Shown piece after piece: positions 1 through 14,821 of a stretch of DNA of 14,821 nt. Position 1 is the stretch's first letter. Each line of letters opens with the position of its first letter. This DNA comes from a bacterium. Its GTDB lineage: Bacteria; JAJRZV01. The position numbers were made by a program, and so were the translations under genes. A model generated the notes under the pieces. That model saw nothing but the letters and a program-made list of their open reading frames with translations. It was not told the origin of the DNA and did not search any database. The stretch lies in NCBI GenBank assembly GCA_024275095.1, contig JAJRZV010000116.1:1-14821 (forward strand), read 5' to 3'.

Positions 1-2
1 CA

Positions 3-77
3 ATTACCAGATTTGAGCCAGAGGGATTTTTTCCACTTGCCCCAACTAACATCCATGGAGGTGTCCCATGTGAGTAG
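3..77 (+). other. Left edge: possible 3' end of an unidentified gene
   Basis: Bases 1-145 hold no recognisable gene. One plus-strand frame is open from base 3 to a TAG at 75-77 and would encode a 24-residue tail ending in NIHGGVPCE. A second plus frame is open to a TAG near 91-93, and a minus frame is also open to the edge, so openness alone decides nothing. If the plus-strand tail is real, its gene converges on the minus-strand gene that stops at 146. I see no strong terminator between them. The family is not recognised. Confidence 0.15.
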
Positions 78-145
78 CTTCTTATAGACGCTTACGTTTT
101 TATATATTAGGGCTTGACTTTCTTAAACCAGACCCGACCCCAATG

Positions 146-595
146 TCAATCTATCAGAGCTCTTATTTTTTCCAGTGCCTCCTCGGGCGTGCAAACCTGC
201 TGTATTCCCTCAATGCTCCATGTGCGATAACCGATCACGGGACGTCCCAGCTTGAGTGCAATGGCTATCTCGCTCAGGGTCCCGTAAGCGCCTCCTATGG
301 CGATAACCACCTGGCCCGACGCTGCCACGGCCACGTTGCGCGCATGTCCCAGGCCGGTCGGTATTGGAATATCCACGTGTGGGTTGGCATCACTGTGCCT
401 GTAGGTTGGAAGAATTCCCACCGCGAGTCCGCCCCCGTCCTTTACCCCGCGTGACACGGCCTCCATTATTCCACCTAGGCCGCCTGTGACCACAACCACA
501 TCCATCTGTGCAAGGCCTTTGCCAAGGTGATATGCAAAATCCAGTAAATCAGAACCCGCGTTGCCTGCACCAATAACTGAAACAATCCGTTTCAT
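146..595 (-). CDS. TIGR00725 family (SLOG / LOG-like) protein
   Basis: A 149-aa soluble Rossmann-like protein of the TIGR00725 group, within the SLOG superfamily related to LOG/lysine decarboxylase-like proteins. It opens with a nucleotide-binding-type glycine loop (VSVIGAGNAG, about residues 5-14). The family hallmarks follow: VVTGGLGGIMEA (about 35-46), a GHARN segment near residue 83, and IGGAYGTLSE (about 100-109), the counterpart of the PGGxGTxxE motif. Length is normal for the family. The ATG at 595 is preceded only by a weak GAG-type ribosome site. It lies 28 bases after the stop of the lipoprotein hydrolase on the same strand, so it is probably the last gene of that operon. SLOG proteins bind or cleave nucleotide-like ligands, but the substrate of this subgroup is unknown. 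The link to haem synthesis is positional only. Confidence 0.85.
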   Translation of the reverse strand: MKRIVSVIGAGNAGSDLLDFAYHLGKGLAQMDVVVVTGGLGGIMEAVSRGVKDGGGLAVGILPTYRHSDANPHVDIPIPTGLGHARNVAVAASGQVVIAIGGAYGTLSEIAIALKLGRPVIGYRTWSIEGIQQVCTPEEALEKIRALID

Positions 596-623
596 ATCAG
601 CTCAGTGTAATCTGATGTCACTT

Positions 624-2369
624 TTATTTTACAACACAGGGACCATTGCAAAGGTCTTCAAGTCGGCCATCGTTAGCGGGATCGGCATCGAGAAATGTAA
701 GAAAGAGGTCACGGGCCTGGATTGCCGGTTCCCTGGCAAGAAGCATTACATGGGGTGTAAGCAACTCGTAAAATATGTTGGGCTCCACCGTAAACTGATA
801 CATGCCCCAGGAGGAAGTCTGTTCACTTCCTACAGGAGAAACCTCCAGCCCCGGCACCTTCCTTACATAAGGGTTGAAAAGCACAAGTCCCGCAGCTCGA
901 GCGAGCGTGTTGGTGGTCTCATTAAGTACAATTCCATCATCCACCGATTCCTGGAGTACCACGGCTTTTACGTTCTTTTTCAACCATGAAGCGTAAGAAA
1001 CAGGTTCTATGGCATCCATGATCGTCTGGGATAAACCGAGTAATACGGCAATATCTTCTATCGAGAGAGTCCGCAAAAGCTGCCTCTCTATTCCCACGAA
1101 ACCGTTAATAAAATCTGAACTCATAACGCGGCCTATGCAACAACCGCCCACGTTAAGCACGGCAGCTTCCACCTCCCGGGTTGCAGATAACAGGACGGTA
1201 CCCAGGTACGATCCCATCGACTGCCCGATGTAAAAAACTTTAACCGGCTCGTCTCTTCCAAAAATTTCCTCTGCATGGGTTTTAATAAAGTAGATGAGCA
1301 AAAATTCCTGAATGACGGTTTCCACCTGAGCATCACGAAACACCCCGGCAAACGTCACGTCCAACTTGAGGAAAAGATTGATAAGACTGCCCGTGTACTT
1401 TTGACGTTCGCCGTGAAAAGACGCATCTATTCCACCCATGTAGAATCCCGCACTGCACAGTTCCGGTGCCACGATTTCCATGGTCTCCTTCACGGCACTG
1501 AGGCCGTGGCCAAAAAGCACAAATGGTATCTCCCCTTTACTGCCGTCCTTTTCAGGTACTTTAAGAAGGAAAACGTTTCGGGTGATTCCTGTAGGCCGGA
1601 GGGGTTTTTTCAGCCGCCTGTTTTCATCAAGAAATTCCGGAAATTCCATTACCAGCCTCACGTTACGTGCGACGCCGCTTTCGTAAGAGGGGTATTCCTC
1701 GACGCTTACAATGCGTACATCATCCAGTTCTTCCATGACGGTCAGGGTGATGGAGCGGAAATACGCGGCATTATCTCTTGTCCTGACAGGAAAATCCCAG
1801 ATCGCCTGGACATCCGAAGCGGGCAGCCCCAGGCGCTCCACAATTTCTCCGTACCCAGGACGGGAAAAGATCTCTTCTTCTGAAAGCCCACTGCGATACG
1901 TGCCTCCATCTCTGTAAGGGAGAAAACCTTTTACAATTACGTAATACCTTTCCCCGGGACGGAACGCCTCCAGCGGAAACAGAACCAGGTATTTATCGCT
2001 TTCACGTTGCCATGCAGAAAACGGGACGCGATGAGAAAGGTCCTCGTTCACGATAATGATCGGTGAGCCACTGGTAAGAGACTGCTCGTACCCGGAAAAG
2101 CGGTCGGTATCTACAGTACGGGACACGGGGATTATTACAGGGCTGACCTGGCTGAACCCATCTGCACTTTCCAGAAGTTCAGCATCAAGTCCTTCAGGCA
2201 ACGCGTATTCTGGTACGTTCATCCTCCCACCCTGGAGAGAGAAACAAAAACTATTTGGAAAGGGAAAGAACGGACTGTCACTGTACGGGGTAATACAGTG
2301 CTTTTCACTCCCACACGAGGCGAAAAGGAAAAAACATATACCACCGATTATCCGGATTGCACGTCTCAA
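624..2369 (-). CDS. Lipoprotein alpha/beta-hydrolase (lipase/esterase-like)
   Basis: A 581-aa exported protein. The N-terminus has an arginine-rich stretch, a hydrophobic core and a lipobox ending FASC (Cys19), so it is predicted to be a lipid-anchored extracytoplasmic protein. Residues about 50-250 look like beta-rich Ig-like modules (for example RPGERYYVIVKGFL near 137). The hydrolase fold follows, with FGHGLSA (about 286-292) as a likely oxyanion loop and GQSMG (382-386) placing nucleophile Ser384. Likely partners are Asp477/478 (SVDDG) and His540 (TPHVMLL). This architecture resembles large bacterial lipase-type lipoproteins; the substrate is unknown. The start is TTG at 2369, overlapping the cobA-hemD stop in a TTGA tetranucleotide. 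It is supported because it begins the signal peptide directly. Its place at the end of a haem operon suggests co-transcription but gives no known functional link. The triad Asp and His are inferred from position. Confidence 0.75.
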   Translation of the reverse strand: MRRAIRIIGGICFFLFASCGSEKHCITPYSDSPFFPFPNSFCFSLQGGRMNVPEYALPEGLDAELLESADGFSQVSPVIIPVSRTVDTDRFSGYEQSLTSGSPIIIVNEDLSHRVPFSAWQRESDKYLVLFPLEAFRPGERYYVIVKGFLPYRDGGTYRSGLSEEEIFSRPGYGEIVERLGLPASDVQAIWDFPVRTRDNAAYFRSITLTVMEELDDVRIVSVEEYPSYESGVARNVRLVMEFPEFLDENRRLKKPLRPTGITRNVFLLKVPEKDGSKGEIPFVLFGHGLSAVKETMEIVAPELCSAGFYMGGIDASFHGERQKYTGSLINLFLKLDVTFAGVFRDAQVETVIQEFLLIYFIKTHAEEIFGRDEPVKVFYIGQSMGSYLGTVLLSATREVEAAVLNVGGCCIGRVMSSDFINGFVGIERQLLRTLSIEDIAVLLGLSQTIMDAIEPVSYASWLKKNVKAVVLQESVDDGIVLNETTNTLARAAGLVLFNPYVRKVPGLEVSPVGSEQTSSWGMYQFTVEPNIFYELLTPHVMLLAREPAIQARDLFLTFLDADPANDGRLEDLCNGPCVVK

Positions 2370-3913
2370 CTTATCCGCTCTCTTTTACCCTTATAAAAAC
2401 TTTCAATCGCAGAAACAAGCGCCTCCACGGTAAAATTTTCAGGCTCAATATCGGGTTTAAAACCCTTGCCCTTAATGGTCTCACGCGTAACCGGACCGAT
2501 TACAGCAATGTGAAGGTTTCCAAGGATTTCTCCGGCCGCGTCCTCTCCCAGTGCACGAAAAAAATTCTCCACGGTTGATGAACTTGTAAAAGTCACGCAG
2601 TGCAGTCCGCCGTTTTGAACTTCTTCCTGGAGAACCTTTGCCTTTTCTTTCACTTCTTCAGGCATCACAGTCCGATACACGGGTATTACCTCAACATGAG
2701 CTCCATGGGACCGAAGAGTTTCAGGTAAAATTTCACGGGCTTTCTCCGCCCTGATAATGAGCACTTTGCGAGTCCTTATATCCCCCCTATGAATAAGGTG
2801 CTCGAGCACGCCCTCAGCAACAAATTTCTCCGGTACCACATCAGCACGAAGTGAGTAAACTTGCAGTGCCTCCGCGGTTGCCGAACCTATACACACAAGC
2901 TGGCATCGACCAAACACCCGCGCATCCATGCCCGCTTTAAAGAGCGCCTCCATGAACACGTGCACCCCGTTCCGCGATGTAAACACCACGTAATCAGCGG
3001 CTTGGATTTTTTTGGCTGTCTCTTTCACGCTTTTTCCGTCCACGATGGGTTTTATCTCGATTACAGGAAAGTGAAATACATACGCACCGCGTTCTTTCAG
3101 CAACCGGGTCATATCGCGTGCCTGGTGGCGTGCACGTGTATTTATCACTCCAATCCCGAAAAGGGGCCTTCTCTCGTACCAGTTAAACAGGTCTGCATAA
3201 CGGCATACCCGGCCCACAATAAAAAGCGCAGGTGGACTCATCTGCACTTTTTCGGCCAGTAACACAATGTCCTGAAGCGTTCCTTTTACACTCCGCTGGG
3301 ACGGGGTGTAAGCCCTGTGGATGAGTACACACGGAGTATTACTTTCCATCCCGGCTTCCTTCAGTTCCTCCACAATTTCAGGAAGTTTTTTCACCGGCAT
3401 GTAAAACACGAGCGTTTCTCCGGCCTTTACAAATTCACGGAGTCGGGTACTCCTCTCCTGCTTCCACCACGCTTCATGACCTGTAATGAACGTGACCGCC
3501 GATGCCCATTCACGGTGAGTGAGAGGTATTCCTGCTGCTGCAGCACCGGCCGAAGCAGCAGTAATCCCTGGAACAACCTCAAAAGGGACTTCCGCTTTCC
3601 ACAGTGCTTCCATTTCTTCACCGGCTCGACCAAATATCAGGGGGTCCCCGCCCTTGAGCCTCACGACAGTAAGACCGTCAAGAGCACGTTCGACCATGAG
3701 GTGATTAATTTCATCCTGGCGCTGATCGTACTTCCACGCGTGTCTGCCTGCGAATATTTTTTCAGCTTCTTTCCTCACTTCTTCAAGCAACTCTTCTGGT
3801 ATGAGCGAGTCGTATATAACCACGTCAGCCTGTTTCAATAATTCGACACATCGCCTGGTAACCAGTAAAGGGTCTCCCGGACCAGCACCTACGATGTAGA
3901 CTTTTCCCTTCGT
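2366..3913 (-). CDS. cobA-hemD: Uroporphyrinogen-III C-methyltransferase / uroporphyrinogen-III synthase fusion
   Basis: A cytoplasmic two-domain tetrapyrrole enzyme of about 515 aa. The N-terminal half is SUMT (CobA), which uses SAM to methylate uroporphyrinogen III to precorrin-2. It shows VGAGPGDP (8-15), LKGGDPLIFGR (86-96) and VVPGITAA (113-120). The C-terminal half, from about residue 250, is HemD, which cyclises hydroxymethylbilane to uroporphyrinogen III. CobA-HemD fusions are common in anaerobes. The start is unusual. The first permitted codon (TTG, 3838) would remove the SAM loop and has no ribosome site. The coding frame continues upstream to an ACG at 3911-3913, which sits where the family's initiator Met lies (followed by KGKVYIVG). 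That ACG is 4 bases after a full AGGAGGTGA. The ORF overlaps the end of hemC by 25 bases. An in-frame TGA precedes the ribosome site, so no start further upstream is possible. ACG initiation, mutation or sequencing error all remain open. Confidence 0.9.
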   Translation of the reverse strand, partial: TKGKVYIVGAGPGDPLLVTRRCVELLKQADVVIYDSLIPEELLEEVRKEAEKIFAGRHAWKYDQRQDEINHLMVERALDGLTVVRLKGGDPLIFGRAGEEMEALWKAEVPFEVVPGITAASAGAAAAGIPLTHREWASAVTFITGHEAWWKQERSTRLREFVKAGETLVFYMPVKKLPEIVEELKEAGMESNTPCVLIHRAYTPSQRSVKGTLQDIVLLAEKVQMSPPALFIVGRVCRYADLFNWYERRPLFGIGVINTRARHQARDMTRLLKERGAYVFHFPVIEIKPIVDGKSVKETAKKIQAADYVVFTSRNGVHVFMEALFKAGMDARVFGRCQLVCIGSATAEALQVYSLRADVVPEKFVAEGVLEHLIHRGDIRTRKVLIIRAEKAREILPETLRSHGAHVEVIPVYRTVMPEEVKEKAKVLQEEVQNGGLHCVTFTSSSTVENFFRALGEDAAGEILGNLHIAVIGPVTRETIKGKGFKPDIEPENFTVEALVSAIESFYKGKRERIS

Positions 3914-4821
3914 TTCCTCACCTCCTCAATTAATTCCCCGGCACCTCTCTCAAGCAGTGCCTTACCAGCAGCAACTCCAACTGCGACAGGGTCAACTCCC
4001 TTCACACTTTCGTACATCATTCGAGAACCATCCTCATCAGCCACGAAAGCTGTAAGTAAAAACCGACCGTCTACCTGGACAGCATGAGCTGCAGCCGGGA
4101 CCTGACAGCCTCCTTCAATGGTTTCAAGAAACGCTCTTTCCGCATCAATGCACTGACGTGTACTTTCGTGGTTCAGGGACTCCAGCAATTCCCCAAATTG
4201 ACAATCTTCACGCACTTCCACCACGATAACACCCTGACCTGTGGCAGGTATAAATTCGCTGCTATCAAACACAACCTGGGCGGCATCTGCCAGACCCATC
4301 CGCTTGAGTCCCGCATATGCCATCACAGCAGCATCTGCTACTCCCTCGCGTATTTTCCTTACACGGGTATCCACGTTTCCCCTGATCTCCACGACTTTCA
4401 AATCCGGGCGTCGTGCGAGTATCTGGGCCTTGCGGCGCAAACTGCTGGTTCCCACAGTTGCTCCTTCGGGTAAATCCTCCAGGCACCTGTACTTGAAAGA
4501 TACAAACGCATCACGCGGATCTTCTCTCTCAAGCACTGCCCCCACTTTCAGTCCCTGCGGAAGTTCCGTGGGAAGGTCCTTTAACGAGTGCACAGCAAAA
4601 TCAATATTACCTCGAAGCATCTCCTCTTCGATTTCCTTGACAAAAAGGCCTTTCCCTCCGATACGCGACAGGGGCGAGTCAATAATTTTGTCTCCTTTTG
4701 TTTTAATCACCACAACTTCGACCTCTACTGACGGCTCGATGGACTGGAGTCGCTCTATCACGTGACGTGTTTGCCACAGAGCGAGCTTGCTTCCACGGCT
4801 ACCGGCCCTCAGCTTCACCAT
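3889..4821 (-). CDS. hemC: Hydroxymethylbilane synthase (porphobilinogen deaminase)
   Basis: A 310-aa cytoplasmic enzyme that joins four porphobilinogen units into hydroxymethylbilane, the substrate of the HemD domain encoded next. The family signatures are present: RAGSRGSKLALWQT at the N-terminus, KDLPTELPQG with the catalytic Asp82 (about 81-90), VGTSSLRRKAQ (about 123-133), RGNVDTRVRK (about 147-156), and EGGCQVPAAAHA. Cys239 in the last motif is the attachment point for the dipyrromethane cofactor. Length is normal for the family. The ATG start is preceded by AAGGAGGG at 4832-4825. The gene overlaps the end of hemA by 23 bases, and its own 3' end overlaps cobA-hemD by 25 bases, so translation of the three is probably coupled. 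Confidence 0.97.
   Translation of the reverse strand: MVKLRAGSRGSKLALWQTRHVIERLQSIEPSVEVEVVVIKTKGDKIIDSPLSRIGGKGLFVKEIEEEMLRGNIDFAVHSLKDLPTELPQGLKVGAVLEREDPRDAFVSFKYRCLEDLPEGATVGTSSLRRKAQILARRPDLKVVEIRGNVDTRVRKIREGVADAAVMAYAGLKRMGLADAAQVVFDSSEFIPATGQGVIVVEVREDCQFGELLESLNHESTRQCIDAERAFLETIEGGCQVPAAAHAVQVDGRFLLTAFVADEDGSRMMYESVKGVDPVAVGVAAGKALLERGAGELIEEVRKRREKSTS
3916..3927 (-). promoter_or_regulatory. Full-length Shine-Dalgarno site for cobA-hemD, inside hemC
   Basis: Read on the minus strand, the end of hemC contains AGGAGGTGA (3926-3918), complementary to the whole anti-Shine-Dalgarno tail of 16S rRNA. GGAGG is 7 bases from the ACG at 3913 and more than 70 bases from the TTG at 3838. Such a strong site implies a start codon close by and is the main argument for initiation at or next to the ACG. 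Confidence 0.75.
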
Positions 4822-6091
4822 TATCCCTCCTTATGGCAAAAACCATTCTCATAATGTCCGCCACTTCGGACAGCTTGCCTTCCCGTGCCGCTTGTTTGAT
4901 ACGCGTGGCCGGCACATGCATCAACTTCTTTACAAGGGAATTGATAAAACCTTCCTTCAAATCCTGAGTAAACTCCCCGCGCCTTGAAAATTCGTGTAAC
5001 AGCTCCTCATACTCTTCTTCCACTATCCTTCTTACCGCAGAGTAAAGCTCCCCCAGCAAATCATTAATATCCACCTCACGCGTTCGAGCGATAAACTTCT
5101 TCACTTCCTCATCAACAATCCGCCGTGCCTTCTCTGCCTCCTTTAATCTCAACTGCTTGTTCTCGTCGGCAATCTTTTCCAGGTCGTCTATGTCATAAAG
5201 AAAGACACCTTCAAGTTTCCCTACCTTGTCTGAAACGACACGGGGAATGGAAATGTCAATGATAAAAAGTGGAGCACCTTTGCGTTTGTACACAATTCCT
5301 TCTGCTCGTTCATAAGTCAATATGTGCGTGGGCGAGCCCGCTGCTGTAATAATCACATCGAAAAGATGCGCCTCTCTCAGAAAATCATCATAAGTAAGAG
5401 CTCTGCCTGTTCCAATTTCTTCTATGAGCTCTTCGGCATGGGCAAGTGTCCTTGAAGCGACAACAATATCTTCCACGCCGTGTGCGTGAAGCTGACGTAC
5501 AGTGAGAGTGCCCATCTCCCCAGCACCGATAACAGCCGCCCGAACTTTTCTTAAATCTCCAAAAATCCGTTCTGCCATCTCAACAGCAACATGACTTACC
5601 GAAGTGGGCATGGCGCCAATTCCTGTTTCCGTTCGAATGCGCTTTCCAACCCGAAAAGCATGGTGAAACAGTGTGCTCATTCCCACCCCGGATGCACCCC
5701 CTGCGACGGCTTCAGAATACGCGGCCTTCACCTGATTGAGTATCTGAGGCTCACCGAGAACCATGGAATCAAGACTACCGGCCACATAGAAAAGATGCCT
5801 GACGGCGTTTTCGCTTTCGTGGAAATAAACATGTTTCTCTATTTCTTCTTCTGAAAGGTTGTATCGCATTTTGAGAAAATCTTTTATTTTCTGCTGTACA
5901 GGACCGGTTCGAAAAATGTAATATTCCACGCGGTTGCACGTTGAAAGAATCACTACCTCATCAACGTTTTCAATGGATTTGACCTCCTTTAAAAGATTTC
6001 TTAACTCTTCGCCTGAAGCCGCAAGGCACTCTCTTAACTCCACAGGAGCCGTCCGGTAACTCAGGCCTGCAAGGAAAAAACGGGAAATCAT
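4799..6091 (-). CDS. hemA: Glutamyl-tRNA reductase
   Basis: A 430-aa NADPH-dependent enzyme that reduces glutamyl-tRNA(Glu) to glutamate-1-semialdehyde, the first committed step of C5-pathway tetrapyrrole synthesis. The N-terminal catalytic domain contains STCNRVEYY with the thioester-forming Cys52. GEPQILNQVKAAY lies near 113-125. The NADPH-binding domain carries VIGAGEMG (187-194). The C-terminal helical region holds the dimerisation domain, rich in Glu, Arg and Lys. Length and motif order match the family. The ATG lies 7 bases past the ccsA stop, with only a weak GAG ribosome site, which suggests coupling to ccsA. The 3' end overlaps hemC by 23 bases. The partner hemL (aminomutase) and the next enzyme hemB are not in the window. 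Confidence 0.97.
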   Translation of the reverse strand: MISRFFLAGLSYRTAPVELRECLAASGEELRNLLKEVKSIENVDEVVILSTCNRVEYYIFRTGPVQQKIKDFLKMRYNLSEEEIEKHVYFHESENAVRHLFYVAGSLDSMVLGEPQILNQVKAAYSEAVAGGASGVGMSTLFHHAFRVGKRIRTETGIGAMPTSVSHVAVEMAERIFGDLRKVRAAVIGAGEMGTLTVRQLHAHGVEDIVVASRTLAHAEELIEEIGTGRALTYDDFLREAHLFDVIITAAGSPTHILTYERAEGIVYKRKGAPLFIIDISIPRVVSDKVGKLEGVFLYDIDDLEKIADENKQLRLKEAEKARRIVDEEVKKFIARTREVDINDLLGELYSAVRRIVEEEYEELLHEFSRRGEFTQDLKEGFINSLVKKLMHVPATRIKQAAREGKLSEVADIMRMVFAIRRDNGEAEGR

Positions 6092-6097
6092 TTTTTC

Positions 6098-6904
6098 TCA
6101 GAACCGATGGTAGCCTTTAAAAATTGTACTCGAGCCGAGAAACGTGAACATCAATATAATAAATGCGACTACCGAAGCATACGCCAGGCGCCGTCCCTTC
6201 CAGCCCATGAAACGCAGGTGCAGTGGAATGGCATAAGCGATCCAGGTAGCGAGCGTCCACACTTCTTTCGGATCCCACGACCACCACACACCCCGGGTAT
6301 GTTCGGACCAGATGGAACCGGTAATCATGGCAAGAGTGAGCATGGGGAATCCGTAGGTTATCGCCCTCATGTTGAGGTCCTCTACTTTTTCCAGTGGAGG
6401 CAGGCGCCTGAAAAGGGTCCCGGTTGTTTTCGACTTCATGCGCCTCTCGAGAATAATGTATGAAAGACCCGAAGCAAACGACAGGACAAAAAAGGCATAA
6501 CCCACAAAGGCAAAAGTCACATGTACGGGGAACAAAATGGAATCAAAACCGGGGGGCATGGGACCCTTCCCTATGCCGGAGATCATCAACATCACCTCAC
6601 ACACCAGAGCCACAGGCATCACGAATGCACCGAGCACTTCCTCGTCGGGAGAGTGAAGGAATACAACAAAGGCCAGCACCACCGCCCACCCGAAAGTGGC
6701 AAGAGCCTCTGGCATGGAAAGAATCGGCAGACGGTCGGCATAGGCATATGAAAAGGCAGCATAAAGAAAGTGCGCTAAAAGCCCGCCTGCTGCACAAACA
6801 GTACCGGCTTTACGTATCCAGGGAATCGCCCTGTAAAAATACAGGATAAAAAAACCTGATGAAAACGCGTAAAATACAGCTGCTGTAATTACAAGCGCCT
6901 CCAT
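6098..6904 (-). CDS. ccsA: CcsA/HemX-type cytochrome c assembly membrane protein
   Basis: A 268-aa polytopic membrane protein of the CcmC/CcsA/ResC haem-handling superfamily, with about eight hydrophobic segments. The tryptophan-rich WWD motif is complete (WWSWDPKEVW, about 207-216). The flanking conserved histidines are also present: His128 in HVTFAFVGYAFF and His229 in HLRF. This favours a haem-exporting or haem-attaching role in cytochrome c maturation, normally with a CcsB/ResB partner that is not seen here. The position directly ahead of hemA recalls B. subtilis HemX, a related protein that limits HemA amount, so a regulatory role is possible. I prefer the ATG at 6904, which has GAGG five bases upstream. 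A GTG two codons earlier would overlap its own ribosome site. It is the first gene of the tight ccsA-hemA-hemC-cobA/hemD block. Confidence 0.88.
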   Translation of the reverse strand: MEALVITAAVFYAFSSGFFILYFYRAIPWIRKAGTVCAAGGLLAHFLYAAFSYAYADRLPILSMPEALATFGWAVVLAFVVFLHSPDEEVLGAFVMPVALVCEVMLMISGIGKGPMPPGFDSILFPVHVTFAFVGYAFFVLSFASGLSYIILERRMKSKTTGTLFRRLPPLEKVEDLNMRAITYGFPMLTLAMITGSIWSEHTRGVWWSWDPKEVWTLATWIAYAIPLHLRFMGWKGRRLAYASVVAFIILMFTFLGSSTIFKGYHRF

Positions 6905-6932
6905 CTTCACCTCGGAACTTTTGCTTTGAGAT

Positions 6933-6966
6933 TAACTTACATCCTGAAACATATTATGTAAAGTTA
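6933..6966. repeat. Inverted repeat between the DUF72 gene and ccsA
   Basis: TAACTTACAT (6933-6942) faces ATGTAAAGTTA (6956-6966), an inverted pair with a single extra base and a 13-base spacer. It covers the stop codon of the DUF72 gene and lies about 30 bases upstream of ccsA. It could be an operator for the haem genes or an AT-rich RNA hairpin. It lacks a GC-rich stem and a T-run, so it does not look like a standard terminator. Confidence 0.4.
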
Positions 6967-7707
6967 CACTGACCCAATCATCATCTTTCTAAACTCGACG
7001 GCGTTTTCGAACATATAAACATTGTTAAACAGCACGTATGTTGAGCACCCCCACCTTTCCACGCGTTCAGCAAGTGCTGCCAGGTCTTTTTTTGTATACC
7101 TGTACCTGTAGTTCTTTCCACCGTGAAGTCTCAGGTACAGGAACTTACATGATTTGAAAAAATCAGAGGGAGGTTCTTCTGCTGCAAGAGGATCGAAAAC
7201 AATGGGCACTTTAGACTGTTCATATATCTTGAGAGCTGCATCCCATGACCATCCACGTGGTTCAAACACAATTTCCAGATTTTCTCGTATATGTCGCCTG
7301 AAGAAATTTACGGCAGCATTGATATTTTCCTGCAAAGGTTTAAAGGACGGGGGCGTTTGAAAAAGAATAATCCTCGCATTCAGGAGTTCGGCACATTCCA
7401 GCGTTTTCTGCCACGCCTTCTCAACGAGAGGCGATGCCACGAAGAAGCCACATCCCATTCCTTTTTCAACTTTTAAAGATTTCAGGCGTCTGTACGTTGG
7501 AGAAGAAGGGGGATGAGTAATGAGTTGCCATGCCTTAACGGTAAAGCAAAAACTCTCCGGTGCTTCGGTACGCCACGTCCTCAAACGATCGAGGGATGGA
7601 GGATCATAAAAGGTTTGCTGCACCTCCACGACGTCCAGGTTCCCAAACACGCGGGCACGCGCCACCGGGAAACCGCAAACGCCTACTTTCAACCCTGAGG
7701 CTGCCAT
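6964..7707 (-). CDS. DUF72 / YecE family protein
   Basis: A 247-aa cytoplasmic protein of the DUF72 (YecE-like) family, which adopts a TIM-barrel-like fold and has no firmly established function. The family blocks occur in order: VGVCGFP at the N-terminus, VEVQQTFYDPPS (like the usual VExxxTFY), FCFTVKAWQLITHP, FEPRGWSWDA, YLRLHGG and a C-terminal YVLFNN segment. I chose the ATG at 7707 because GAAGGTG lies five bases upstream and the family homology begins immediately. The ORF is open a further 26 codons to an ATG at 7785, but that extension looks non-coding and would cover the promoter region. The stop is about 60 bases before the ccsA start on the same strand, so this may be the operon's first gene. 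Its relation to haem synthesis is unknown. Confidence 0.88.
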   Translation of the reverse strand: MAASGLKVGVCGFPVARARVFGNLDVVEVQQTFYDPPSLDRLRTWRTEAPESFCFTVKAWQLITHPPSSPTYRRLKSLKVEKGMGCGFFVASPLVEKAWQKTLECAELLNARIILFQTPPSFKPLQENINAAVNFFRRHIRENLEIVFEPRGWSWDAALKIYEQSKVPIVFDPLAAEEPPSDFFKSCKFLYLRLHGGKNYRYRYTKKDLAALAERVERWGCSTYVLFNNVYMFENAVEFRKMMIGSV

Positions 7708-7806
7708 GCAAACACCTTCGAAAATTACAAAGTATATATATTCATGTAAAATACCCTGAAAATTTTTACAATATTTTGACCACATAGAAACAAAAGGGGG
7801 GAAAGG
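7708..7806. promoter_or_regulatory. Divergent promoter region (DUF72/haem operon and GH13 gene)
   Basis: This AT-rich 99-bp spacer separates two divergent genes and must hold their promoters. For the plus strand, TACAAT at 7767-7772 is a good -10 candidate 35 bases ahead of the GH13 start, but no clear -35 lies at the right distance. For the minus strand, TTTACA followed 15 bases later by TGTAAT is the best pair visible, with a spacer shorter than ideal. No palindromic operator is evident. Confidence 0.35.
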
Positions 7807-9477
7807 ATGCCCAAAAAGAGGAAACTTTTTTATGTGTTTTCGGCCATTTTGGTTTCGGTGATCGTATGCACAGGATGCGGTGGAAACAAAGCAGACAATT
7901 TTACATACGACTCCCCGGCTCCCTCGACAGATGAACCCACGTGGTACAAAAAAGTTGTTTTTTACCAGATTTATCCCAGGAGCTTTAAGGACAGTAACGG
8001 CGACGGCATTGGAGATCTCCAGGGCATAATAGAAAAACTGGATTACTTACAGGACCTTGGTATTGGTGGAATATGGCTTAACCCGATTTATCCTACCCAA
8101 AACGTGGATCTTGGCTACGACATTACTGATTACCGGGACATCAACCCGGAATTTGGTACGATGGAAGACTTTCAGCTACTTCTACAGGAAGCCCACAGGC
8201 GCGGCATTAAAATATTCCTCGATCTGGTATTCAACCACACATCGGCCGCTCATCCCTGGTTTCAGGAATCCCGCCAGGGACCGAATAATCCAAAAAGCGA
8301 CTGGTACGTGTGGGCACCGGAACCCTACTTCGACTGTAACGATATTCCTGACATTATCAACACCTTCGGGGCCAGCCGGTGGACGTACGATCCTGTGCGA
8401 GGCGAATACTACTTTCACCAGTTTTACGAGGGCATGCCCGACCTGAACTTCAACAATCCTGAAGTGCGTGAGGAATTATTGAACATCGTACGCTACTGGC
8501 TGGACATGGGGGTTGATGGCTTCAGACTGGATGTCGCCCACTCTTACTATGAAAATCCTGCTGAAAACAAATGTATCCACCAACCTGAAACCCACATGTT
8601 CCTCAAGGACATGCGAGCCGTACTCGACGCTTATCCAAACAAAGCTATGGTAGCCGAAGTTATGCTCTTCCCCGATGATATTATTGCCTACCTTGGCAAC
8701 GGCCACGACGAAGTACACATGATCTTCAATTTCATCCTCATGACCGGACTTTACACCGCTGCACTGGGTGGTGGCAATGCCCTTCTCCGAGAACTCATGG
8801 AAAAAACGTTTGATAAATTTCCTCCCGGGGGATGGCACGCCATCATTATCGGAAACCACGACCTGCCGCGGTCTTTTTTACTGGTGGGAGAGGACGAAAA
8901 AAAAGCCAAAATTCTCGCGTTGTTGCAATTAACCTTGCCCGGGACACCTTTTATCTACTACGGCGAAGAAATAGGTATCACCAGTGGCAGTGACATTGTC
9001 GTAGACTGGAGAGACGCGTCCAGAACTCCCATGCAGTGGGACGACTCTTCGGGGGGTGGTTTCACCACCGGCACAGCGTGGGTGAACCTCTCGCCCAACT
9101 ATCAAACACACAACGTGGCCGCAGAAGCGGAAAACCCGGAGTCCCTGTACAGCTTCTACAGGAGACTCATACGCATGAGAAACGCCCTGCCTTCTCTTCA
9201 AACAGGAAGCATTCAATTTGTAAACACTGACGTCAACCAGGTCATTGCATTTGTACGGGAGCTGAACAACGACTGCATAGCAGTGGTGATGAATCCATCG
9301 TCCAGATCTGTAAATGTGCACCTGGACCTCGGGCCTGTGTTTGGAGATGTCTCTTCTGCTGAAGTGGCAGACATCTGGAACCAGGTGCCCCTGAATCGTC
9401 TCACAGACACAAACGTTTCACGTTACGCTCTTACGCTCGAGCCGTACGGCTTCCGCATTCTAAAAATTCAAAAGTAA
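7807..9477 (+). CDS. Secreted GH13 alpha-glucosidase/alpha-amylase lipoprotein
   Basis: A 556-aa glycoside hydrolase family 13 enzyme. The N-terminus is a lysine/arginine run, a hydrophobic core and a lipobox-like CTGC, predicting lipidation at Cys24 and an extracytoplasmic location. The catalytic (beta/alpha)8 barrel begins near residue 45 (YQIYPRSF), followed by the calcium-type loop DSNGDGIGD (62-70). Conserved regions are DLVFNH (139-144), GFRLDVAH with nucleophile Asp242, AEVM with acid/base Glu284, and GNHD with Asp352. RTPMQWD (406-412) is typical of alpha-glucosidase and trehalose-synthase-like members. Region V reads MPDLN (210-214), the intermediary type between oligo-1,6-glucosidases (QPDLN) and neopullulanases (MPKLN). 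A short beta domain ends the protein. It likely hydrolyses or rearranges alpha-glucans or oligosaccharides; exact specificity is not readable. A G-rich ribosome site (7796-7801) precedes the ATG. It appears monocistronic, with no sugar transporter or regulator nearby. Confidence 0.93.
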   Translation: MPKKRKLFYVFSAILVSVIVCTGCGGNKADNFTYDSPAPSTDEPTWYKKVVFYQIYPRSFKDSNGDGIGDLQGIIEKLDYLQDLGIGGIWLNPIYPTQNVDLGYDITDYRDINPEFGTMEDFQLLLQEAHRRGIKIFLDLVFNHTSAAHPWFQESRQGPNNPKSDWYVWAPEPYFDCNDIPDIINTFGASRWTYDPVRGEYYFHQFYEGMPDLNFNNPEVREELLNIVRYWLDMGVDGFRLDVAHSYYENPAENKCIHQPETHMFLKDMRAVLDAYPNKAMVAEVMLFPDDIIAYLGNGHDEVHMIFNFILMTGLYTAALGGGNALLRELMEKTFDKFPPGGWHAIIIGNHDLPRSFLLVGEDEKKAKILALLQLTLPGTPFIYYGEEIGITSGSDIVVDWRDASRTPMQWDDSSGGGFTTGTAWVNLSPNYQTHNVAAEAENPESLYSFYRRLIRMRNALPSLQTGSIQFVNTDVNQVIAFVRELNNDCIAVVMNPSSRSVNVHLDLGPVFGDVSSAEVADIWNQVPLNRLTDTNVSRYALTLEPYGFRILKIQK

Positions 9478-9635
9478 ATTACAATACCGCCTGGAAGAGA
9501 GCAGCCGGCACTTTCCTCGCGATGAAAATTGCGCCGATCAAAAAAGCGAAGGATTAAAATTTTGTATATGGAAAAAGAACTTCTGGCGTGGTTAAATGTA
9601 TAAAAAGGTGATTATATCTGTTCACGGTCTGGAAA

Positions 9636-10136
9636 ATGCTTGACTATTTATCCATATTTAGAAAGCTAAACGAAAGAAAAATACGGTATATCGTGGCAGG
9701 TGGAGTGGCCGTAAACCTTTATGGAATACCCAGGATGACATATGACATAGACCTCCTGCTGGATCTCCAGGATGAAAACCTGAGGAGGTTTGCAGAACTT
9801 GTGAGCGAATGGGGATTCAGACCGAAAGCGCCCGTGGACGTAGTGGATCTTGCAGACGAAGAGAAAAGGGAAAAATGGATAAAAGAAAAAAACATGAAAG
9901 CATTTAACCTTTACAACGACGAATGGGCCATATCAGAAATTGATGTCATCGTTGACTCAGCGGTAAGTTACAACGAGGCTTCAAAAAAAATAAACAAAGT
10001 GAAGGTTGGAGACGTTACAATTCCACTGATTTCCATCGATGACCTGATCAAAATGAAGGAACATGCAGCCAGACCCCAGGACCTCATCGATGCAAAATAC
10101 TTGAGAAAAATAAAAGATGAAGAAAGAAGAAGATAG
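9636..10136 (+). CDS. MNT/AbiEii-like nucleotidyltransferase
   Basis: A 166-aa protein with the polymerase-beta nucleotidyltransferase core. GGVAVNLYG (22-30) supplies the glycine-turn motif. TYDIDLLLDL gives the metal-binding pair Asp37 and Asp39, and EIDVIVD gives the third carboxylate, Asp103. The C-terminal block DLIKMKEHAARPQDLIDAKYL (about 136-156) is typical of AbiEii/DUF6036-type nucleotidyltransferases, some of which are toxins of type IV or MNT/HEPN-like systems. All catalytic residues are present, so it should be active on a nucleotide substrate; the target is unknown. It overlaps the next small gene by 20 bases on the same strand. The ribosome site is weak (GGA just ahead of the ATG), and a stop shortly upstream limits other starts. 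Its isolated position between metabolic genes fits an accessory cassette. Confidence 0.85.
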   Translation: MLDYLSIFRKLNERKIRYIVAGGVAVNLYGIPRMTYDIDLLLDLQDENLRRFAELVSEWGFRPKAPVDVVDLADEEKREKWIKEKNMKAFNLYNDEWAISEIDVIVDSAVSYNEASKKINKVKVGDVTIPLISIDDLIKMKEHAARPQDLIDAKYLRKIKDEERRR

Positions 10137-10293
10137 AAAAGGGTTTGAGTACCATCTTGACGAAGAGAGCATCAAAAAGTATAAAAAAAAACCCCTGCAA
10201 CTTCGCCTGCAGTGGCTTTATGCAGGAAATCTTTTCAGAAAGCACTACAGCAAAGAAATATTAAAAAGACAAGACGAGCTGAGAAAAAAGTAA
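10117..10293 (+). CDS. Small charged partner protein of the nucleotidyltransferase
   Basis: A 58-aa ORF beginning inside the 3' end of the nucleotidyltransferase gene (ATG at 10117, stop TAA at 10291-10293). The protein is very basic and helical-looking, with acidic and lysine clusters around a central PLQLRLQWLYAGNLFRK segment (about 26-42). That central pattern, a proline followed by an RLxWLxxA-type helix, resembles short ORFs I recall next to AbiEii/DUF6036 nucleotidyltransferases, though I cannot name a family. Overlapping translation suggests stoichiometric co-expression, as in toxin-antitoxin pairs, where it would be the antitoxin or binding partner. Its base composition is more A-rich than the surroundings. 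Existence is likely from the tight overlap and coding-like content; function is inferred. Confidence 0.65.
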   Translation: MKKEEDRKGFEYHLDEESIKKYKKKPLQLRLQWLYAGNLFRKHYSKEILKRQDELRKK

Positions 10294-10346
10294 AATTTTA
10301 TAAACGTTCAGGTTTTTGAAACCTCGCAAATTACAGGGTAAAACAC

Positions 10347-10517
10347 ATGCACATTTCATTACTCACAGCTCCTGTCAAGCCCATTCTTTTGGGTTTTCAC
10401 CCTGGTTGTATGGAGGTTTATATGGAGCAAGCATGGCAGGCTTTGGCAGAATTACAACTACTGATTACAGATAAAAGAAGAAAAACTCGGTCAGCAACAT
10501 CCTGTCTTGTCAAATGA
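10347..10517 (+). CDS. Possible small ORF antisense to the activase 3' end
   Basis: A 56-aa open frame starts at an ATG preceded by CAGGG eight bases upstream and ends with TGA at 10515-10517, overlapping the 3' end of the minus-strand activase gene by 27 bases. An internal ATG at 10422 has an ideal ribosome site (GGAGG, five-base spacer) and would give a 31-aa basic peptide. The product shows no motif I recognise. It lies 53 bases beyond the nucleotidyltransferase pair on the same strand, so it could be a third cassette member, a decayed gene or chance. A weak hairpin (AAGCCCA facing TGGGTTT, around 10377-10397) lies inside it and could instead be a poor terminator for the pair. Confidence 0.25.
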   Translation: MHISLLTAPVKPILLGFHPGCMEVYMEQAWQALAELQLLITDKRRKTRSATSCLVK

Positions 10518-13500
10518 GAACCGACTCCGGCGAGCACGCCTTTCCTTAACCTCTTCTGCAAACGCATCGAGCAAAGCTTCGGTGTCTGGATCATACTGCC
10601 CTGAATATACAAGCGTAACAACGGGAATCTTGTAGTCATTTTTTATTTTTTCTATCACAGCGGATGAAGCCGTACCGACCATGCAGTTAAAACACGTGGC
10701 ATTAATAATCCCCTCCACCCCCTTTTCTGCAAAATCCACCATCTTGGCCACGTTCAGGTAAAACAGTTCGTTATTTAAGTTGTCAGTGTAGAGCCCGGCA
10801 TACTCGCGAATTTTTTTGTAGGAAGGCTCATCCCATTTACTCAGGATGTGTTCTGCCGCCCGGTAAAACGACCAGAGTTTCAACTCCTTCCTCAAGAGAA
10901 GTATTCCTGCAAGAGCAGCCTTTTTGTATTCCCATTTTCTCGTACCTTCGTAGAAATCCCGGGAAATGCCAAAGTCAAGAATATCAACTTCAAAAGGTGC
11001 CGGCACACCCACAAGTCCTCTTTCAGCAAGAGCATTAAACAGGTCGAAATTGGCAGACCTGTTAACGCGTGTGTAAATATCTCCTGCGACACCTACAACA
11101 GGCCTGTCATCGCGCTTTACTTCCACCTTCTCCAATTCTTTAATAAATCTTTTAAACTCCAGAAGTACATCTCCGCTTTCCACAGCCTTTTCCATTGCCG
11201 TAAGGGCTTTATGGTATATTCGAAATGCCTCTCCCTTTCTCACCTCAAAAGGCAATTTCAGGCAAAATGCCTTGTGAAGTACATCTATTGCAAAAAGGGC
11301 TTTGTAAAACCGCTCCGCACCTTTCATACCAACTATGGAGATAAATTCTTCGGCAACAGGTGTATAAACCTTCGCATGGGTTGCACCAACCTCGCGCAAA
11401 AAGATATTCATCCCCGTAGCGTATTCGTACAGAAGACAGGGTATTTTTGTTCCGGGAAACAGAAACACAAAGGGCTCCTTCTCTCTCTCAAGGAGTGCAA
11501 CAAGGTCTCCGAGCAAAACCGAATATGCATGACACTCTTTACCAGAGGAGTACCTCTCTCCGAGTTCCTTTGTTTTCGCATCGGGTAGAGGTAAAACTTC
11601 GGCATTGATACCGGCATATCTCATAACCCCTGAAAGAGCGTATGCATGGTCAGAAAAGTAAGGAATGTAAACCTTTCTGTTTTTTAAATCATCCGGGGCA
11701 ACCTTCGAACGCTCGGGTATAAAAATATGCTTTTTCTCTTTCACCCTTTTACCTGCTTCACGTAACAAATCGCTGTAAGCTTCTAACCTTGTTATCAGGC
11801 CGGCTTCTCCCCTGTGCTCATCAAATTCGAGAAAAAGAGCCGGGTACTCTTTCAATATTTCATCAAACACTTTGTGAGCAAATGCATCTGGACCACATCC
11901 GAAGTTGGATATAATAACTGGATAGATATTTTGCCTCTTCAGCGAATCTAAAAGTGTTTTAAAGCCGTCCCTGGAATACTTCCACGGAAACAGAGGACTT
12001 TCTTTTTCACTAACCCTGAGCAGGTTCATGGGCACTGCTGTGAAACCAAGCCTTCGCAGGTGGGAGAAAAGATTTAAGTTAAGGTATGAATCGTAGATAT
12101 TATAAGGCCTTCCAATGACAGCAAGAGTGATTCCTCCTTCTTTGATGACTTCTTCTGCCCTATTTCTCATTTTTGTTTCAAATTCAATCTGAACATTCAT
12201 CGCTTTTCTGAAAGCCGTACGCACTGCCGCAGAGGAAATTGAAAGGAGTTCTTCGTACTTTTTGAAACCTTCTACGAATCCTTCCTCATCCATCGAAAGT
12301 GTCGGAGCAATTACGCGGGAAATATCTCTAAGCATTGTTGGGAGGGCCTGGGTATAAGGGCACGTAAACTCTTTTTCACCAAATGCATAAATTGCGGGAA
12401 GAAAAATAAAATCCACCCTCTCTGAAAGCCATGCCACATGTCCAGCAACAAACTTTACAGGTATGCACGTTACAGCCTGAAGCAGCCTGGAGCTGAGAAT
12501 AAGAATTTCATGAGAAGACGGTGGAGAAAGGACAGGTTTAAACCCGAGCTCACTGAAAAACGTAGCCCAGAAAGGAAGATACGCTATCATCACCGATGCT
12601 CGAGGTATACCGATTGTTCTCGCGGCCTGCTTCTCCTGAAAATATCTCTCGGCTTCCTGGATGAACTCACTGACCAGGTCAGGGCCCTCCACCCCTTTAC
12701 CTCTTTTCTGAGATGTGTACCGTTCGCAGGTGTCCCCGAAAAATGCAAATTCGCTCTTTCCAAGCTTCAGCACTCCTACATCACAGAAATTACTGCACTG
12801 TTTACATTCAAAAGTCTTCATTTTCTCAGGCATCTTTTCAGGAAACCGGAATTTACTTTCTCCTTTGACCTGGTCTCGAGCAATCAACGCGGCTCCGATA
12901 GCTCCGGAGAGCCGGTTATACGGGTGCACGTATATTTCCTTCCCCAGCACCGACTCGAATGCGCTCACCACTGCATCATTCGATGCCACCCCTCCCTGGA
13001 ACACGATCTTTTTGCCGACCTTTCGGTTCCCCACCACCTTCTCTAAATAATTTTTCACTATTGCATGCGCAATTCCTGCACAAACATCCCTGAGTTCAAA
13101 CCCATACGAAAGCGCAGACGAAACGGTCCTTTCCATAAACACTGTACAGTGATGATTCAAAAGAGCAGGCTTTTCAGCAGAGAGAGCCATTCGGGCAAAA
13201 TCCTTTTTCACATCTATGCCCATCAGCGAGGTCTGTTCTTCTATAAAAGAGCCAGTGCCTGCAGCGCATACTTTATTCATGGTGAAATCACGTATACGAC
13301 CACCTTCCATATAAATGTACTTGGAATCCTGACCGCCGATCTCAAAAATCGTATCTGCATCGGGAAAATAAAACAGCGTTCCTTTCATCTGACAGGTAAT
13401 CTCATTTTTCACGAGATCGGCATTAACCAGCGCCTGGGCAAGATACCTCCCGCTTCCCGTAGTACAACATCCGAGCACCTTCAGTCCTTTTGGAAACCTT

Positions 13501-14531
13501 CGCGCAAGAATTTCAAATCCTTCAACAAGTACATCAACAGGCCTGCCCCTTGTGGGAAGATAAACTGCAGAAAGTAGATTGCCTGCTCTGTCCACCACGA
13601 CAATATCCGTGCTGACGGAACCCACATCTATGCCCACATAACCTTCTGCTTCATTCTCGAATATATCTTCTGGCTCTTTATGTCTCTCTTTAACCACCTG
13701 TCTTAGAGAATCTGATGATAATGGAACCAGCTCGCGTGAAGATGTGAAATCCAGAGATTTGACAACTTCCTCAAGGTCCACTTCCGGATCATTTGCTGCG
13801 AGCAAACACGCCCCCAGGGCACACTCCATTCCAGGCATGGGTGAAGGTATAATTTCGACATCCGGAAGAAGCTCTCTTAACGCCCTGACAAGGGCCCCAT
13901 TCTTACTGCAACCACCTGCAAACACCACTGGAGAAGCAATATCTTTACCTTTCAAAAGGGCAGAGACGATATTGGTTGCTACTGCATAACACAAACCGTA
14001 AGCAATTTCTTCAGCGGGCACTCCTTTCTGCTGAAGATGTATCATATCTGACTTGGCAAACACGGCGCATCGACCAGCAATTTTTGCTGGTTTTTTAGCT
14101 TTCAGGGCAATCGCTGCAAAATCCTCCACGCTCATCTGAAATCTTCCAGCCTGCTGTTCAATAAAGAGACCTGTACCTGAAGCACACTTTTCTGTCATGG
14201 CAAAATCTTCTGTTTCTCCTTTTTCACCTATCCTCAAAAACCGTGCACGTTCACCACCCACCTCTATGACAACCTTTGCATCTGGATAAAGAAACAGGAC
14301 ACCTTTCTTCAATGCTGTAAAGGGCTCAACTCTTATACCTGAAGAAAAAGGAGTGTTTACACTGGCCAGCTTTACTTTTTTAATTCCTGAAGCCAGGCAT
14401 TCCTCAACGATTTTTTCTGTACTTTTCTTAAAAGGAGTATCACCGCCAAACACCCAATTTTTAACACACAGTTTGCCGTCAAAAAGTACGGCTTTAGTAG
14501 ATACGGCTCCTCTATCTATCCCAAGAATCAT
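10491..14531 (-). CDS. Giant acyl-CoA dehydratase activase-related protein (two BcrA/BadF ATPase domains + DUF2229 + HgdB-like)
   Basis: A 1346-aa cytoplasmic protein related to the ATP-driven activators of 2-hydroxyacyl-CoA dehydratases and benzoyl-CoA reductases. Two ASKHA ATPase domains lie in tandem (about 1-250 and 298-555). Each has the two cluster-binding cysteines that homodimeric activators use to share one [4Fe-4S]: Cys116/Cys155 (KCASGTG, GRCAVF) and Cys422/Cys462 (VCAAGTG, HHCTVF). A Cys-rich CxxCxxxC with Cys602 follows (576-602), then a DUF2229 region (about 640-930), and an HgdB/BcrB-like part containing CFNC (1280-1283). The chain ends in Cys-Cys. It probably couples ATP hydrolysis to low-potential electron transfer; the substrate is unknown. 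The first ATPase domain has GGER where the second has the canonical GGQD. I chose the second ATG (14531), since it gives the family start MILGID and the promoter nearly abuts the first ATG (14537). The gene stands alone, with no separate dehydratase adjacent. Confidence 0.92.
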   Translation of the reverse strand: MILGIDRGAVSTKAVLFDGKLCVKNWVFGGDTPFKKSTEKIVEECLASGIKKVKLASVNTPFSSGIRVEPFTALKKGVLFLYPDAKVVIEVGGERARFLRIGEKGETEDFAMTEKCASGTGLFIEQQAGRFQMSVEDFAAIALKAKKPAKIAGRCAVFAKSDMIHLQQKGVPAEEIAYGLCYAVATNIVSALLKGKDIASPVVFAGGCSKNGALVRALRELLPDVEIIPSPMPGMECALGACLLAANDPEVDLEEVVKSLDFTSSRELVPLSSDSLRQVVKERHKEPEDIFENEAEGYVGIDVGSVSTDIVVVDRAGNLLSAVYLPTRGRPVDVLVEGFEILARRFPKGLKVLGCCTTGSGRYLAQALVNADLVKNEITCQMKGTLFYFPDADTIFEIGGQDSKYIYMEGGRIRDFTMNKVCAAGTGSFIEEQTSLMGIDVKKDFARMALSAEKPALLNHHCTVFMERTVSSALSYGFELRDVCAGIAHAIVKNYLEKVVGNRKVGKKIVFQGGVASNDAVVSAFESVLGKEIYVHPYNRLSGAIGAALIARDQVKGESKFRFPEKMPEKMKTFECKQCSNFCDVGVLKLGKSEFAFFGDTCERYTSQKRGKGVEGPDLVSEFIQEAERYFQEKQAARTIGIPRASVMIAYLPFWATFFSELGFKPVLSPPSSHEILILSSRLLQAVTCIPVKFVAGHVAWLSERVDFIFLPAIYAFGEKEFTCPYTQALPTMLRDISRVIAPTLSMDEEGFVEGFKKYEELLSISSAAVRTAFRKAMNVQIEFETKMRNRAEEVIKEGGITLAVIGRPYNIYDSYLNLNLFSHLRRLGFTAVPMNLLRVSEKESPLFPWKYSRDGFKTLLDSLKRQNIYPVIISNFGCGPDAFAHKVFDEILKEYPALFLEFDEHRGEAGLITRLEAYSDLLREAGKRVKEKKHIFIPERSKVAPDDLKNRKVYIPYFSDHAYALSGVMRYAGINAEVLPLPDAKTKELGERYSSGKECHAYSVLLGDLVALLEREKEPFVFLFPGTKIPCLLYEYATGMNIFLREVGATHAKVYTPVAEEFISIVGMKGAERFYKALFAIDVLHKAFCLKLPFEVRKGEAFRIYHKALTAMEKAVESGDVLLEFKRFIKELEKVEVKRDDRPVVGVAGDIYTRVNRSANFDLFNALAERGLVGVPAPFEVDILDFGISRDFYEGTRKWEYKKAALAGILLLRKELKLWSFYRAAEHILSKWDEPSYKKIREYAGLYTDNLNNELFYLNVAKMVDFAEKGVEGIINATCFNCMVGTASSAVIEKIKNDYKIPVVTLVYSGQYDPDTEALLDAFAEEVKERRARRSRFSFDKTGCC

Positions 14532-14540
14532 AAGCATTTA

Positions 14541-14569
14541 TTTATACAGACCAGGAAAGGTTTTGTCAA
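14541..14569 (-). promoter_or_regulatory. Sigma-70-type promoter of the activase gene, predicted near-leaderless
   Basis: On the minus strand, a perfect -35 TTGACA (14569-14564) is followed after exactly 17 bases by -10 TATAAA (14546-14541). The usual six- to seven-base distance puts transcription start at about 14535-14534, three to four bases before the ATG at 14531 and at or past the ATG at 14537. No Shine-Dalgarno sequence precedes either ATG. The mRNA is therefore predicted to have almost no 5' leader. Confidence 0.7.
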
Positions 14570-14580
14570 AAGTGTATTGC

Positions 14581-14661
14581 CCAGGAGGTTATTTTATTTA
14601 CTATATAGGGGCTTCCCGCGGGTATATTCCTGGCACCACCCCCCATTCATGCTATATACCC
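14581..14661. repeat. Nested inverted repeats upstream of the activase promoter
   Basis: Several symmetric elements crowd the bases just upstream of the -35 box: CCAGGA (14581-14586) facing TCCTGG (14628-14633), the palindrome CCCGCGGG (14615-14622), and GGGTATAT (14620-14627) facing ATATACCC (14654-14661). They could be operator sites for a regulator of the activase gene or parts of one RNA or DNA structure. No protein family can be assigned to them. The rest of 14538-14821 shows no identifiable gene or RNA. Confidence 0.35.
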
Positions 14662-14728
14662 AGACACAATTAGTAATACACGACCTGCTTAACTTAGAAA
14701 AAAAGAAGGCGTTTAATTTAAAAAGTTC

Positions 14729-14821
14729 TTAGTCCTTTAAAAATCTGCACGCAGGCTTTATTGGTGAAATACGATGTTCATGCGATAGGTGTGCACGGGC
14801 GAATATATCCGAACGCACCAG
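14729..14821 (-). other. Right edge: open frame running off the window, unidentified
   Basis: A minus-strand frame enters from the right edge and stops at a TAA (14729-14731), giving a 30-residue tail (LVRSDIFARAHLSHEHR and onward) that I do not recognise. On the plus strand, a GTG near 14764 also opens a frame to the edge (MKYDVHAIGVHGRIYP). At most one is likely real, and neither has a strong ribosome site or a family match visible. Both are noted only as possible partial genes. Confidence 0.15.

Follow-up and report, generated by a model that had tools for sequence, protein, structure and literature searches.

An ACG codon at the expected start of cobA-hemD in a draft bacterial genome: most likely not a biological feature

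Does a sole, central enzyme of tetrapyrrole synthesis begin with ACG in this bacterium, or does the draft assembly carry a wrong base? The question arises in the stretch of DNA that we call the window, all 14,821 nucleotides of contig JAJRZV010000116.1 (positions 1 to 14,821; assembly GCA_024275095.1, a draft of 136 contigs). A first-pass annotation had proposed that cobA-hemD is initiated at ACG and that this would act as a strong or condition-dependent brake on the pathway. Here we examine the site itself, the rest of the genome, and the explanations that compete for this single base.

The gene and its start region

The gene belongs to the following group, in the order of the minus strand:

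6910-6098, minus strand: ccsB-like gene for cytochrome c biogenesis, with which the group begins (TIGR03144, E 6.8e-48, below the curated cut-off)
6091-4799, minus strand: hemA, upstream in the same operon (TIGR01035, E 1.6e-117)
4821-3889, minus strand: hemC, its last 25 bases overlapping the start region of cobA-hemD (TIGR00212, E 6.2e-107, the profile stopping at residue 292 of 310)
3913-2366, minus strand: cobA-hemD, a fusion of uroporphyrinogen-III C-methyltransferase and uroporphyrinogen-III synthase, 515 aa counted from the ACG (TIGR01469, PF00590, PF02602)
2369-624, minus strand: protein of unknown family, 581 aa and lipoprotein-like, carrying a hydrolase motif of the GQSMG type and unmatched in Pfam

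Elsewhere in the window a 1348-aa protein (10491-14537, minus strand) joins a BcrAD_BadFG ATPase to DUF2229 parts, in the manner of a 2-hydroxyacyl-CoA dehydratase activase. An AbiEii-type nucleotidyltransferase-like protein (9636-10136, plus strand) stands alone, with an SD-like run upstream and no evident partner gene.

The HemD encoded at this locus is the only one in the genome, and the same is true of the methyltransferase (SUMT) part, hence a crippled start would be costly. One other gene with a TP_methylase domain occurs in the genome, on C11, and is probably rsmI; the corrin-ring methylases are therefore missing. Since HemE (URO-D family) and a precorrin-2 dehydrogenase-like gene are both present, and AhbA/B were not found in the genome, CobA-HemD stands at the branch between haem and sirohaem. 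The first-pass annotation had added B12 to that branch, a part of its wording that has to be dropped.

All features of the start region lie on the minus strand with the gene. Read from 3928 to 3893 this strand runs TGA GGA GGT GAG GAA ACG AAG GGA AAA GTC TAC ATC, and contains or is followed by these features:

3928-3926, minus strand: in-frame TGA, the upstream bound of the cobA-hemD frame
3926-3918, minus strand: Shine-Dalgarno (SD) site AGGAGGTGA, then GGAA, then ACG (judged from the sequence, the genome's spacing distribution and the interior background)
3913-3911, minus strand: ACG where the initiator Met is expected (homologues have Met at the site or a few residues before it)
3838-3836, minus strand: TTG, the first canonical in-frame start, 25 codons downstream of the ACG and without an SD

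The SD site is as strong as was first claimed. It is nine bases long and ends four bases before the ACG, and all nine can pair with the usual 16S end; the draft genome itself contains no 16S rRNA gene. Measured from GGAGG, it stands at a spacing of 7, more frequent than any other among the 243 SD-led starts of the genome. A match of at least 9 bases at a spacing of 5-9 precedes only 49 of 261,257 interior codons, which puts this site beyond chance. The ribosome-binding site is also unusually unstructured (z +1.83). Between the TGA and the TTG at 3838 the frame has no ATG, GTG or TTG, and hemC does end at 3889, giving the 25-base overlap; on both counts the earlier reading was right. The locus looks as a genuine ACG start should: the SD lies at a working distance, and none of the canonical starts would preserve the conserved N-terminus.

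Where, then, does the protein begin? Translation from the ACG meets no internal stop. The SUMT profile TIGR01469 covers residues 3-240 of the ACG-started protein (E 1.8e-83, 279.9 bits against a cut-off of 185), the Pfam TP_methylase domain PF00590 lies at 4-216, and the HemD domain PF02602 follows at 268-500 with 220 bits. A SUMT match over the curated cut-off, with its N-terminal SAM-binding loop, and a C-terminal HemD together identify the product as a CobA-HemD fusion. Solved SUMT structures align with it from residue 2 or 3, and distant homologues place their Met one to about a dozen residues ahead of the same conserved strand (e.g. MQGKVYLIG, MGRVYLVG and MGEVIIAG). The protein from the TTG at 3838 would instead open with MKQADVVIYD, lacking the first beta strand and the SAM-binding GAGPGDP loop; because that TTG is the first start available, the loop is out of reach for an ORF caller restricted to ATG, GTG and TTG. 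An SD at the commonest spacing, a profile that begins right behind the ACG, and the starts of the homologues together indicate that the ACG marks the expected place of initiation, as the first-pass annotation had it.

The homologues start with ATG, or rarely GTG, and ACG was the start codon of none that we examined, all of them distant. The nearest relatives in the collections searched share at most about 45% identity, with one further locus in genome_contigs at 42%, and the source genome is the only member of its phylum in the collection searched.

Point changes and initiation across the draft

The other genes of the window all look intact, but a number of conserved genes in the wider draft do not. 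We scanned the two halves of 14 genes cut by one in-frame stop separately against NCBIfam and Pfam. In 13 of the 14 the halves match adjoining stretches of a single family or series of domains; the exception is an M50 peptidase whose short first half matched nothing. In nine the cut lies inside a single NCBIfam profile, and the match of the second half picks up again no more than about ten positions after the first has ended:

L3: profile positions 1-83 and 87-202
DnaE: 1-713 and 716-1022
RF2: 14-91 and 96-352
SufB: 3-296 and 298-448
Lon: 8-42 and 46-773
AccC: 2-321 and 331-443
LeuA: 1-376 and 386-494
NadB: 3-157 and 162-489
GspE/PilB: 3-395 and 406-486

In four others, namely AFOR, a NiFe-hydrogenase small subunit, a DAGK/YegS-like kinase and an MR/MLE enzyme, the stop interrupts one Pfam domain or a pair of them. 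The stops are TAA, TAG and TGA alike and are spread over many contigs (L043:754; L093, at 8711 on the plus and 1991 on the minus strand; L137:2205; L090:15553; L091:10974; L134:3284; L165:5342; L162:5645; L114:19574; L039:17629; L084:18473; L047:7890). The L3 gene with its internal TAA is the only one for this ribosomal protein in the genome, and as far as we know a living bacterium would not be expected to manage without L3, DnaE or RF2. Essential single-copy genes are thus broken by isolated point changes elsewhere in this genome. An automatic count gave 22 interruptions in 1.31 Mb (16.7 per Mb), some of which are gene boundaries, against a single one in 0.4 Mb of two control genomes.

Could the stops be read through? 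Reassignment or suppression was rejected: all three stop types are hit, and none of the tRNAs found in the genome is a suppressor or has an anticodon for a stop. RNA editing was rejected as well: when the NiFe-hydrogenase small subunit gene is read with X at its stop, relatives carry Glu there, and no U-to-C change of the UAA at that site can produce Glu. The plain reading is that these stops are base-level consensus faults or bases from mixed strains. A literature search on stop codons arising from errors in draft genomes gave nothing of use.

Is this load of changes large enough to reach a start codon? A random substitution in these genes would create a stop in about 3.9% of cases, so that 9-20 nonsense changes correspond to about 2.2e-4 to 4.8e-4 substitutions per coding base. 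This predicts about 0.96 to 2.1 non-canonical starts in the whole genome, and a chance of 62-88% for at least one; the estimate is rough, since it takes its stops from a hand-curated list, treats every change as equally frequent and samples 54% of the genome. Two candidates for lost starts were found in that 54%, the ACG of cobA-hemD and an ATT in sppA. This is slightly above expectation, as an SD is clear enough for the start test in only about 45% of genes. With about one to two lost starts predicted, one ACG needs no special biology.

Our survey of starts covered 1.31 Mb in 89 stretches with 1,015 coding frames, the same 54% of the genome. In it only one codon, the ACG of cobA-hemD, has an SD of at least 9 bases and a positive coding score while lacking a usable canonical start in its vicinity. 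We rejected ACG starts as a genome-wide habit: an SD-like site precedes just one other ACG (L142), and the coding score there is negative. The sppA-like gene (L160:11925-12848) seems to begin at ATT behind AAGGAGG, with its membrane anchor encoded upstream of the first ATG, and looks like a real second case of a lost or non-canonical start. An altered initiator tRNA was ruled out by the single, normal fMet tRNA with anticodon CAU. The infC gene starts with ATG, hence there is no sign of the kind of control known from IF3 and AUU.

Weighing the explanations

We think it probable that this is an ordinary cobA-hemD and that the ACG is a one-base fault of the draft consensus. The gene would be a regular member of a hemA-hemC-cobA/hemD operon, starting at 3913-3911 behind a strong SD inside the end of hemC, most likely with ATG in the living organism. 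The ACG would have come from a sequencing or assembly error, or reflect a minority strain. From the load described above we infer that the base in question belongs to the genome's point faults; the intact look of the other window genes speaks against this. Sequencing error had been listed among the alternatives by the first-pass annotation, and the fault load of the assembly now moves it to the front; recent mutation, listed beside it, fares less well. The idea that ACG initiation brakes the haem/sirohaem branch finds no support. ACG opens none of the homologues, the sampled 54% of the genome yielded no second convincing case, the single initiator tRNA is of the normal kind, and the point-fault load explains the codon.

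That said, a true and fixed ACG start deserves a hearing, though we regard it as unlikely. The codon sits in exactly the right place, and the nine-base SD at optimal spacing, the open ribosome-binding site, and ribosomes that end hemC translation 25 bases downstream could permit enough initiation. In one of the libraries tested in E. coli reporters, ACG gave 0.1-1.5% of the output of ATG (PMC6925171), and little protein may suffice from the sole copy of the enzyme. All this shows that ACG could initiate, without making it likely that it does. The initiator tRNA would pair poorly with ACG, so output would be low or would respond to the level of IF3, which when raised inhibits non-canonical starts (PMC2268962). 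An elaboration, distinctly unlikely in our view, is that the sole cobA-hemD of this lone lineage starts at ACG, with the SD and coupling to hemC compensating, and thereby gives a low, IF3-sensitive supply of uroporphyrinogen III. Against a true start speak the lack of an ACG-started homologue, the single case in 1,015 coding frames, the lone normal initiator tRNA and the ATG of infC, and the error load of the assembly accounts for the codon without it.

The remaining explanations are weaker still. A real ATG-to-ACG mutation in the sampled strain, or in part of the population, would need one base change and would lower or abolish CobA-HemD; drafts from mixed samples can carry such minority alleles. 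We consider it very unlikely, because loss of the sole SUMT and HemD, beside an apparently haem-dependent ccsB, should be selected against, and the rest of the frame is intact; without reads, though, it would be hard to tell from the consensus fault favoured above. Initiation at another codon in frame is highly improbable. The TTG at 3838, which a gene caller would choose, has no SD and would shorten the protein by the first strand and the loop that the profile and the solved relatives all have, while an ATC five codons after the ACG would also cut the first strand and has merely a weak purine run ahead of it. Scarcely credible is a -1 frameshift at the end of hemC, yielding a HemC-CobA-HemD fusion that needs no start codon. 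It is true that cobA-hemD lies in the -1 frame of hemC and that an SD-like sequence stands upstream, as at dnaX-type sites. However, read in the frame of hemC the overlap lacks an X XXY YYZ heptamer, the SD is spaced as for initiation, and distant homologues have their own start codon.

Known systems and meaning

The gene resembles known CobA-HemD fusions (TIGR01469/PF00590 with PF02602) in domain order, in full length and in its place behind hemA-hemC; only the start codon as written in the assembly differs. The type example of a natural non-canonical start, the AUU of infC, likewise follows a good SD. Whereas that codon serves autocontrol through IF3, the ACG of cobA-hemD shows no conservation, as far as distant homologues can tell. 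Plant organelles likewise have ACG at initiator positions in their DNA, changed to AUG by C-to-U RNA editing, which is not known in bacteria. A literature search for natural ACG starts in bacteria gave nothing of use. Point errors of draft consensus sequences have the same character as the changes seen here, i.e. scattered single bases over many contigs and one stop of any type in essential genes. The change in cobA-hemD differs from the typical ones in falling on the start codon and not inside the frame.

When a single base in a draft genome looks remarkable, the finding has to be judged in light of how error-laden that assembly is. Here the genome is the sole member of its phylum in the collection searched, and its point faults are estimated at a few hundred per Mb; without reads, therefore, a missing start, premature stop or unusual residue in it should not be taken as biology. 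Most likely the ACG start of cobA-hemD is not a real feature of this organism. Were it real, a gene of central metabolism would here offer a rare natural example of initiation at ACG.
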